DNA of 64,000 bases, from assembly GCF_004216475.1 (NCBI RefSeq), contig NZ_CP022303.1:1302001-1366000 (forward strand), written 5' to 3'. The DNA comes from Thalassococcus sp. S3. Lineage in GTDB: Bacteria > Pseudomonadota > Alphaproteobacteria > Rhodobacterales > Rhodobacteraceae. The position numbers and the translations under genes are program-made. Positions 61,185 to 63,203 of the stretch are shown piece after piece. The notes under the pieces are model-generated. The model was given only the letters and a program-made list of their open reading frames with translations, was not told the origin of the DNA and ran no database searches. Position 1 is the first letter of the stretch. The number at the start of each line of letters is the position of its first letter.

Positions 61185-63203
61185 ATGCACGCCTATCGCA
61201 GTCAAACCTGTGCCGATCTAAGAGCCGCCCATGTGGGCGAGACTGTCCGCTTGTCCGGATGGGTGCACCGGGTGCGAGATCATGGCGGTGTTCTCTTCAT
61301 CGATCTGCGCGACCATTACGGCATGACGCAGGTGCTCTGCGATCCCGACAGCCCTGTCTTTGCCGAGGTGGAGAAAGTCCGCTCTGAATGGTGCATTCGC
61401 ATCGACGGAACGGTCAAGGCACGTGACGAGAGCCTGGTGAACCCCAAGCTGCCGACGGGCGAGATCGAAGTTTACATCCGGGATCTGGAAGTGCTGGGAT
61501 CTGCGGCGGAACTGCCGCTGATGGTGTTCGGTGATCAGGAATACCCCGAGGAAACCCGCCTGCGCTATCGCTATCTCGACCTGCGCCGCGAGGCGATGCA
61601 GCGTAACATGGCGCTGCGCTCGGACGTTGTGGCCTCCATCCGCCGTCGTATGTGGGACAGCGGGTTTCGCGAATATCAGACCCCGATCATCACCGCCTCC
61701 AGCCCCGAGGGCGCGCGCGACTTTCTGGTGCCCTCCCGCCTGCATCCGGGCAAATTCTACGCGCTGCCACAGGCGCCGCAGCAATTCAAACAGCTCATCA
61801 TGGTGTCGGGCTTTGACAAGTATTTCCAGATCGCGCCCTGTTTCCGCGACGAGGACCCGCGTGCCGACCGCAGCCCGACCGATTTCTACCAGCTCGACAT
61901 GGAGATGTCGTTTGTCGAACAGCAGGACGTGTTCGACACGATCCAGCCGGTGCTGACGGGTATCTTCGAGGAGTTCGGAGGGGGCCGGAAGGTCGATCAG
62001 GACTGGCCGCAGATTTCGTACAAAGATGCGGCCCTTTGGTACGGAACCGACAAGCCCGACCTGCGCAACCCGATCAAGATGCAGATCGTATCGGACCATT
62101 TCCGGGGGAGCGGGTTTGCCATCTTCGCCAAGTTGCTGGAGCAGGAGGGCACGCAGATCCGCGCCATCCCAGCGCCGGGTGGCGGCAGCCGCAAGTTTTG
62201 CGACCGGATGAACGCCTTTGCCCAGAAGGAAGGGCTGCCGGGCATGGGCTATATCTTCTGGCGCGAAAAGCAGAAGGGAGGTGCTGTCGAAAAAACTCGC
62301 GAGAAGATCGCAGCATTGAAAGCGATTATAGGGGACATGGATGATTTGGGAGACGCGGCGCAAGAAGACAAGCAGAGACTTGAGCGACTAATTGAGCACT
62401 ATTTGGTGGCAGGCTTTTTTGAAGCGGCCGAAAATCTAGATGCCGCAAATCGGGCGGAAGCAGCGCTCAAGGAGTTGAACTTTGGTGAGGCTCAACGAAT
62501 TCTTCAAGCCTTCGATTCAGATATTGAAGCCGCCGGCCCCCTTGCCAAGAACATCGGACCGGAGCGGACGGAGGCCATCCGCCAGCAACTGGGCCTTGGC
62601 GTCGGCGATGCGGCGTTTTTCCTTGGCGGCAAGCCGAAGGCGTTCGAGACTGTGGCCGGGAAGGCCCGCGTCGAGATTGGCAATGAGCTCGGGCTGACCG
62701 AAAAAGACCGCTTTGCCTTTGCCTGGATCGTCGATTTCCCGATCTACGAGCAGGACGAGGAGACCGGCCGGATCGACTTTGAACACAATCCCTTCTCCAT
62801 GCCGCAGGGCGGAATGGAGGCGCTGGAGGGCGATCCGCTCAAGGTGCTGGGCTATCAGTATGACCTGGCCTGCAACGGGTACGAGCTGGTCTCGGGCGCG
62901 ATCCGGAACCACAAGCCCGAGATTATGTTCAAGGCGTTCGAGATTGCCGGATATGGCAAGGACGAGGTCGAAAAACGCTTTGGCGGCATGGTCAATGCGT
63001 TCCAATACGGCGCGCCGCCCCATGGTGGCTGTGCGGCAGGGATCGACCGGATCGTGATGCTGCTGGCCGATCAGCAGAACATTCGCGAGGTCATCATGTT
63101 CCCGATGAACCAGCGCGCCGAAGATCTGATGATGGCAGCGCCGTCCGATCCGACTTCGGATCAGCTTATGGAACTTGGCTTGCGTGTGATCCCGCAGGAC
63201 TGA
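61185..63203 (+). CDS. aspS: Aspartyl-tRNA synthetase with an internal insertion
   Basis: Class IIb synthetase charging tRNA-Asp (and perhaps tRNA-Asn). The N-terminal OB anticodon domain (residues about 15-105: [23 protein letters not shown]), motif 2 ([24 protein letters not shown]), the GAD domain and motif 3 ([28 protein letters not shown]) are all present. At 672 residues it is about 80 longer than usual (about 590): residues 365-449 form an insertion between GYIFWREKQ and [15 protein letters not shown]. The frame is kept, so it should be functional. Confidence 0.95.
62277..62531 (+). other. In-frame, lower-GC insertion in aspS
   Basis: About 85 codons lie between the conserved flanks FWREK and AGPLAKN. 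The segment is almost all helical by eye ([48 protein letters not shown]). GC counted over 62281-62520 is 119 of 240 (about 50%), against a higher flanking value, and it uses codons rare nearby (ATA, CTA, CGA). This points to later acquisition. No intein motif (start Cys/Ser, end HN) is visible. Confidence 0.75.

Follow-up and report, generated by a model that had tools for sequence, protein, structure and literature searches.

The closest described relatives of the enzyme considered here are the bacterial-type, GAD-containing, non-discriminating aspartate–tRNA ligases (AspRS) that act with GatCAB, with which it shares the same catalytic, anticodon-binding and GAD frame. Compared with these, the AspRS encoded in the window (the whole stretch of DNA that was analysed, 64,000 nucleotides) adds an 87-residue swappable domain at the tip of the GAD hairpin. 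Lineage-specific insertion domains of aminoacyl-tRNA synthetases are similar in that both are in-frame extra domains in a surface loop of an essential synthetase. Such domains are generally inherited with the lineage, whereas near relatives of the window's AspRS often have none or a dissimilar version. HsdS target-recognition domains and other swapped specificity or antigen cassettes share conserved edges, a hypervariable interior, wholesale replacement and atypical base composition with the aspS insert, which differs in residing in a cytosolic housekeeping enzyme without a known specificity role. Rickettsia palindromic elements are likewise in-frame coding DNA inside housekeeping genes; however, no repeats or palindromes were found at the aspS insert, which occurs once in its genome, and the copies in relatives are not alike.

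Insertion domains are already known from synthetases, as are swapped cassettes from specificity genes. A swapped cassette within an essential synthetase is a combination new to us, and a search of open-licence papers found no description of this AspRS insert. Enzymes essential to translation serve as slowly evolving, conserved markers, and wholesale domain replacement between near relatives is unexpected in one of them; such swapping is usually a feature of genes that have evolved in conflict with phages or rivals. Its occurrence in AspRS points to strong, specific selection in an ecologically major bacterial group, and the insert region of aspS should not serve as a marker in Rhodobacteraceae.

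The aspS gene and the site of the insert

The window contains a complete aspS on the + strand (61185..63203), encoding an aspartate–tRNA ligase of 672 aa that is the only AspRS match in its own genome. The product passes the curated cut-offs for bacterial AspRS and has the OB-fold, class II core and GAD frame. The NCBIfam profiles NF001750 (795.7 bits against a cut-off of 443) and TIGR00459 (578.6 bits against 373.85) both match it in two stretches around the insert, and the Pfam domains PF01336 (OB-fold) and PF00152 (class II core) score over their cut-offs. The first half of the GAD domain (PF02938) is matched at residues 314-367 (62124..62285, + strand) with 22.7 bits, just below the cut-off of 23.4. 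As this match covers profile positions 1-56 of 95 and stops there, the insert sits inside the GAD domain, which supports the location given in an earlier note on this DNA. The note had contrasted 672 residues with about 590 in the family, and the top-ranked insert-free relative, P0098, is indeed 591 aa long, with 92% identity over 54% of the query in the best local alignment of a protein search. The extra residues, previously put at 365-449, do form one block, and its refined limits of 361-447 (87 residues, 62265..62525, + strand) lie within four residues of that estimate. The insert replaces a loop of ~6 residues; after GYIFWR, insert-free relatives mostly have 6 residues and nearly all have 6-8.

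Both edges lie on strands of the GAD hairpin. The left edge, GYIFWR (residues 355-360, 62247..62264, + strand), falls within a modelled strand at 355-361 and is invariant among aligned carriers. The right edge (residues 448-461, 62526..62567, + strand) comprises the returning strand and sequence beyond it, and is nearly invariant in carriers, with one- or two-residue differences in a few. Edge invariance partly reflects how the rows were chosen, as inserts were cut out by edge pattern and the region search favoured proteins resembling the insert of the window's AspRS and its edges. Within the insert, the N-terminal part (62265..62435, + strand) is effectively unalignable between most carriers, with pair identity near the shuffled level. 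The two C-terminal helices (residues 418-443, 62436..62513, + strand) have a weak motif of the type AxxRIxxAxxxGDxxxAxxLxxAYFG in many carriers.

The peptide had been described as helical, and modelling predicts four helices, at residues 366-386, 393-408, 418-429 and 433-443. In the predicted structure the insert protrudes from the GAD domain as a separate bundle of helices. Two unlike inserts were modelled with the same four-helix layout, although both models share one alignment and hence are not independent. In a fold search run with the whole model, it aligns with AspRS structures from E. coli, P. aeruginosa and T. thermophilus. A search for sources of the cassettes among solved structures gave one weak match, a syntaxin (E 1.7). 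Pfam and NCBIfam recognised no established domain in the insert. Weak matches of the isolated insert piece to Rnk_N (E 0.0065) and MurF (E 0.017) are taken as chance.

Several identities for the block were considered and rejected. An intein is contradicted by the absence of any intein family among the Pfam and NCBIfam matches, by the length of 87 residues, by E at the start and by the lack of splice residues at the edges, the last in agreement with the earlier reading. A Rickettsia-type palindromic element was rejected as no repeats occur at the block and a protein search found one copy in its own genome. No repeats were found at the insert edges, and no RNA element in Rfam matched the block.

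Distribution of the inserts

Among 394 genomes that represent the family at one per genus, at least 37 have long inserts; the window's own is included, and the count is taken from the listed matches of a profile search at E < 1e-8. It is a lower bound because the insert profile misses divergent inserts. The family is called Rhodobacteraceae on the basis of named relatives. Loci were returned for 30 of the 37 matching genomes and all have long inserts. The comparison with relatives suggested earlier finds long inserts across many genera, with sequences that are mostly dissimilar. A single recent insertion in the window's genome is rejected, since carriers are widespread. A sample of 385 genomes from the class, a few of them Rhodobacteraceae, gave no match at 1e-7 other than the window's own genome; the class-wide profile carries Rhodobacteraceae edges and could miss another kind of insert elsewhere.

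Besides the window's AspRS, the region search returned 96 proteins, all of which have the class II core domain and at least 47 residues at the site. Overall, three main states are seen: the loop, a conserved short insert (the KTADAVAQELGITVKEAQAKLKSGEVEGG type) and a long variable insert, represented by 95, 43 and 113 of 251 parsed rows, which are not a random sample. Inserts were cut by pattern, from a GYIFWR-like to a GPLAK-like motif, and rows in which the flanks were short, the frame was broken or the pattern was missing were left out. Long inserts range from 39 to 108 residues with a median of 78 (137 rows). Among 19 loci measured by alignment, 17 (7 of the same family and 10 of the same class) have ordinary loops, one (L149) is ~30 residues longer and one (L141) does not cover the site.

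States are mixed within genera. Of seven members of one genus, g223, four have no insert and three have long inserts of 44, 75 and 89 residues, and one of these three, G222, also holds an insert-free aspS fragment. Four members of genus g13 divide two and two, and a group of 21 around Aliiroseovarius comprises 18 with the short insert, two without and one with a long insert.

The G222 assembly contains two partial aspS copies, L185 on contig C38 with the 89-residue insert and L191 on contig C24 without it, that share 93.9-95.8% DNA identity beside the site. They probably represent two strains in one assembly.

Replacement of inserts between conserved flanks

The diversity of the long inserts far exceeds that of their flanks. 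At 50% identity, 120 distinct long inserts form 102 single-linkage clusters, and at 70% there are 111 singletons. Over 6328 pairs of long inserts, the median insert identity is 0.198-0.244 in every bin of flank identity. As in HsdS, close relatives have dissimilar interiors between conserved edges: in 13 pairs with flanks at least 95% identical, the inserts are below 35% identity in 11 and at least 50% in two, with none between. P0004 and P0011 have flanks that are 99.5 and 99.1% identical and inserts (77 and 87 residues) that are 11.6% identical. Dissimilarity is strongest in the N-terminal part; in 1500 random pairs, inserts without their last 30 residues have a mean identity of 0.171 against 0.154 for shuffled sequences, while the last 30 residues reach 0.256 against 0.173.

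Gradual divergence does not account for this pattern. In the 27 alignable pairs, insert distance is a median of 3.3 times flank distance (range 0.44-5.7), which by our own arithmetic would leave an insert identity of ~0.85 at 95% flank identity. Divergence at this rate would not yield inserts below 35% beside flanks of at least 95%. DNA comparisons show presence and absence directly. L185 (89 residues) and L186 (6 residues), from two species of one genus, give a clean empty site, with flank DNA 93.5% identical before it and 94.6% after it. Other DNA pairs have sharp left edges, and in L184 versus L188 ~35 codons to the right of the insert differ too, as if replaced together with it. At identical flank residues, third positions match at only ~0.55-0.87 in most 30-codon blocks of the pairs checked, so despite the high protein identity of the flanks these comparisons are between species and do not reflect recent divergence.

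A tree of the flanks (174 rows, insert omitted) requires 29 changes to place the 37 long rows, of which at least 17 are forced by well-supported branches. Shuffled labels require a mean of 33.7 changes, and 9 of 500 shuffles are as low as 29. The long label is therefore slightly clustered and inheritance plays some part.

The replacement is specific to aspS within the neighbourhoods compared. Internal unalignable blocks of ~54 columns or more were flagged in 15 of 208 ortholog pairs (alignments of at least 200 columns, from 20-kb neighbourhoods of 15 stretches in three genera), and all 15 are aspS. Taken together, these observations identify the GAD hairpin tip of Rhodobacteraceae AspRS, with high confidence, as a cassette site at which a domain is swapped by recombination. 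The flanks are conserved enough that inserts could be exchanged or removed cleanly, which offers a testable system.

Base composition and constraint

The earlier note had given the GC content of the block as ~50%, below the flanks, and 62277-62531 has a value of 0.494. The refined block (62265-62525) has a GC of 0.487 and a GC3 of 0.460, against 0.615 and 0.786 in the rest of aspS. In a scan of 60 script-picked ORFs in the 64 kb (1455 segments of 87 codons in ten-codon steps, mean GC3 0.765, sd 0.071), the three lowest segments (0.47, 0.51 and 0.52) all overlap the block, so its low GC3 is not due to chance. Rare codons, of which ATA and CTA had been singled out, are enriched though few: the block has ATA 1, CTA 2, CGA 2 and TTG 4 of 87 codons, and the aspS flanks have 0, 1, 1 and 3 of 585.

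Low GC is a general property of the long inserts: in 39 of 40 loci it is lower than in the flanks. GC3 in the inserts averages 0.50 (range 0.31-0.71) against 0.85 upstream, and shows no clear correlation with host GC3 (r 0.23, p 0.16, n=39). Short inserts do not share this property, with 16 of 34 below their flanks. Next to long inserts GC3 stays close to that of the host but dips slightly on either side: the value for the last 6 codons before the insert is -0.089, compared with +0.030 in rows lacking an insert (p 2e-5), and that for the first 18 codons after it is -0.019, compared with +0.038 (p 0.006). Given these dips and the right-side differences between L184 and L188, the insert edges are not perfectly clean. 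A pool that is foreign-like in composition and stays so suggests that long inserts reside only briefly. The transfer proposed earlier is supported in that the block behaves like a transferred stretch of foreign coding sequence, but it is not one segment in one genome; the site is a recurrent, hypervariable cassette site found across the family. Nor is the same block with normal codon use common to most relatives, as most examined family rows have no long insert and carriers have different, low-GC3 blocks.

While resident, the inserts look like constrained, folded protein, judging from substitution patterns and models. Five alignable pairs have a pN of 0.32-0.38 and a pS of 0.73-0.85, and a sixth has 0.49 and 0.66; as the pairs were picked for alignability, which lowers pN, and synonymous sites are near saturation, only the direction, pN below pS, counts. 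With fewer non-synonymous than synonymous changes in alignable inserts, the idea that the segment has been "tolerated" may be too weak.

No source of the cassettes outside aspS was found in the own genome, small proteins, phage, viral contigs or relatives' genomes. Among 2571 small-protein candidates none was related to the inserts at E 10 or less, and the phage search gave one weak match, in a capsid gene (E 0.05). None of 78 insert-pattern matches in viral contigs was confirmed; full AspRS matched viral contigs at three loci, and the one inspected (L217) reads as ordinary bacterial genes. An insert-only profile run over 121 genomes, with a reach limited enough to miss the known carriers G050 and G058, gave seven matches at E 0.01 or less, four of them aspS and three weak. 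Two of the weak matches read as unrelated, a dehydrogenase and a sigma-factor-like ORF. A protein search found no second copy of the insert in its own genome, where the next match (E 0.5) also reads as a sigma-factor-like ORF. A comparison of 79 loci, eight of them with long inserts, over up to 3 kb of flank found no gene family exclusive to the long-insert loci; several ORFs beside these eight have no relative in the compared set.

Probable tRNA-Asn charging and proposed selection on the insert

At E 1e-20 the only match to the asnS profile in the window's genome is aspS itself, with 83.3 bits against a cut-off of 342.6. GatA, the GatCAB component that was searched for, is present at 550.5 bits against a cut-off of 481.1. 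With no AsnRS over the cut-off and GatA present, the window's AspRS presumably charges tRNA-Asn whatever the insert does, and is thus presumably non-discriminating, serving both Asp and Asn decoding. Alleles with no insert or with the short one are common, so the long domain is presumably dispensable for catalysis.

In the explanation preferred here, the well-supported part is that the hairpin tip holds a short loop, a conserved short insert (~25 residues longer) or a long domain. Long domains come and go and are exchanged as a whole, for which recombination within the strongly conserved flanks is the simplest route, and they come from a very large pool with a GC3 of ~50%. Replacement would be driven by diversifying (frequency-dependent) selection, a step that we infer. 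The AspRS of the window's genome is apparently the sole source of Asp-tRNA(Asp) and Asp-tRNA(Asn), which would make it an attractive target for phage proteins or for the toxins of rivals. Such an attacker would bind either AspRS itself or its transamidosome complex with GatCAB; placed at the tip of the hairpin, a bulky domain would mask or change the surface bound, and alleles not yet met by rivals or phages would be favoured.

Wholesale domain replacement among near relatives is a mark of frequency-dependent selection in conflict genes. For this reason we favour, tentatively, evasion of an inhibitor that acts on AspRS or the transamidosome as the most likely driver. The short insert is conserved and not hypervariable, which a pure arms race at the site would not predict. 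As an explanation of the whole, a cassette site combined with a conflict driver is the best available, with a probability of roughly 45%. A bolder form is somewhat more doubtful: that AspRS carries a helical shield swapped like an antigen, that phages and bacteria have a common class of AspRS or transamidosome attackers, and that each insert is the fossil of an encounter. If true, such a class of proteins awaits discovery in Rhodobacteraceae. For the type VI toxin Tse8, binding to GatCAB of the transamidosome and inhibition of translation are reported (PMC12283126), making the transamidosome machinery a known kind of target. The reported target is GatCAB rather than AspRS, and in another bacterial group (PMC12283126).

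Alternative explanations

The main rival, itself rather unlikely, is tolerated turnover at a permissive hairpin tip. Coding DNA would enter there by recombination or illegitimate insertion, and whatever encodes a folded, soluble piece would persist temporarily before being lost, with no benefit to the cell. A long insert is indeed absent from many relatives (of the 251 rows, 95 have the loop and 43 the short insert; carriers occur in at least 37 of 394 genera), long-insert loci share no linked gene family, and the low GC3, without amelioration, fits short residence. The dissimilar low-complexity insert of L149 at the same loop also indicates that the site is permissive. Arbitrary DNA, however, would not be expected to show pN below pS or a shared predicted fold, and the four-helix layout predicted for two inserts is accompanied by a C-terminal motif common to many. 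Further points against turnover are that among the 208 ortholog pairs no neighbouring gene was flagged besides aspS, and that no insert source was found outside aspS.

A partner or regulatory domain is less probable. Here the insert would dock AspRS to GatCAB, another synthetase, or a membrane or stress protein, and its variation would reflect co-evolving partners. This agrees with the apparent reliance of the window's genome on the AspRS-GatCAB route and with the prediction of a discrete bundle leaving the GAD domain. Close relatives without the insert, and cassettes that differ between near-identical synthetases, nonetheless argue that no conserved partner is required.

It is improbable that the insert is a self-recognition or immunity allele, that is, a form of the target that withstands a toxin, diffusible or delivered by contact, which the same cell makes from elsewhere in its genome. 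Immunity and specificity genes typically show such swapping of dissimilar alleles within conserved ends, but the eight long-insert loci have no gene family exclusive to them in the flanks compared, and unlinked immunity is unusual. It is very improbable that a single fast-evolving insertion domain was inherited vertically and lost in places, since the alignable inserts shared by some related carriers (27 pairs) and the slight clustering of the long label are outweighed by the two groups of insert identity at high flank identity, the mixed states within genera and the 29 changes needed for 37 long rows.

Other insert classes and plasmid copies

Two records of the group have a plasmid-labelled aspS, Pseudoseohaeicola (P0160) and Pseudorhodobacter turbinis (H2). 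Fourteen plasmid records with AspRS include one from this group, that of Pseudorhodobacter turbinis; its match is 1773 bases long and hence has no long insert.

The conserved short insert, ~25 residues longer than the loop, is patchy over genera (L003-L006, L014, L088-L090, L092 and others). Its types are KTADAVAQELG(I/T)xVKEAQAKLKSGEVEGG and KQSADSIAQERGISVKEVNALIKAGEI, with ordinary GC and low pN. In L149, from a same-class relative outside the family, the same hairpin tip carries ~30 inserted residues of low-complexity sequence rich in serine and glycine. Two small classes are unlike the long helical inserts: one of ~40 residues with GDPMFG (L027, P0181), and one of ~48-52 residues that starts with YEQLGG or similar (L030, P0086, P0165).
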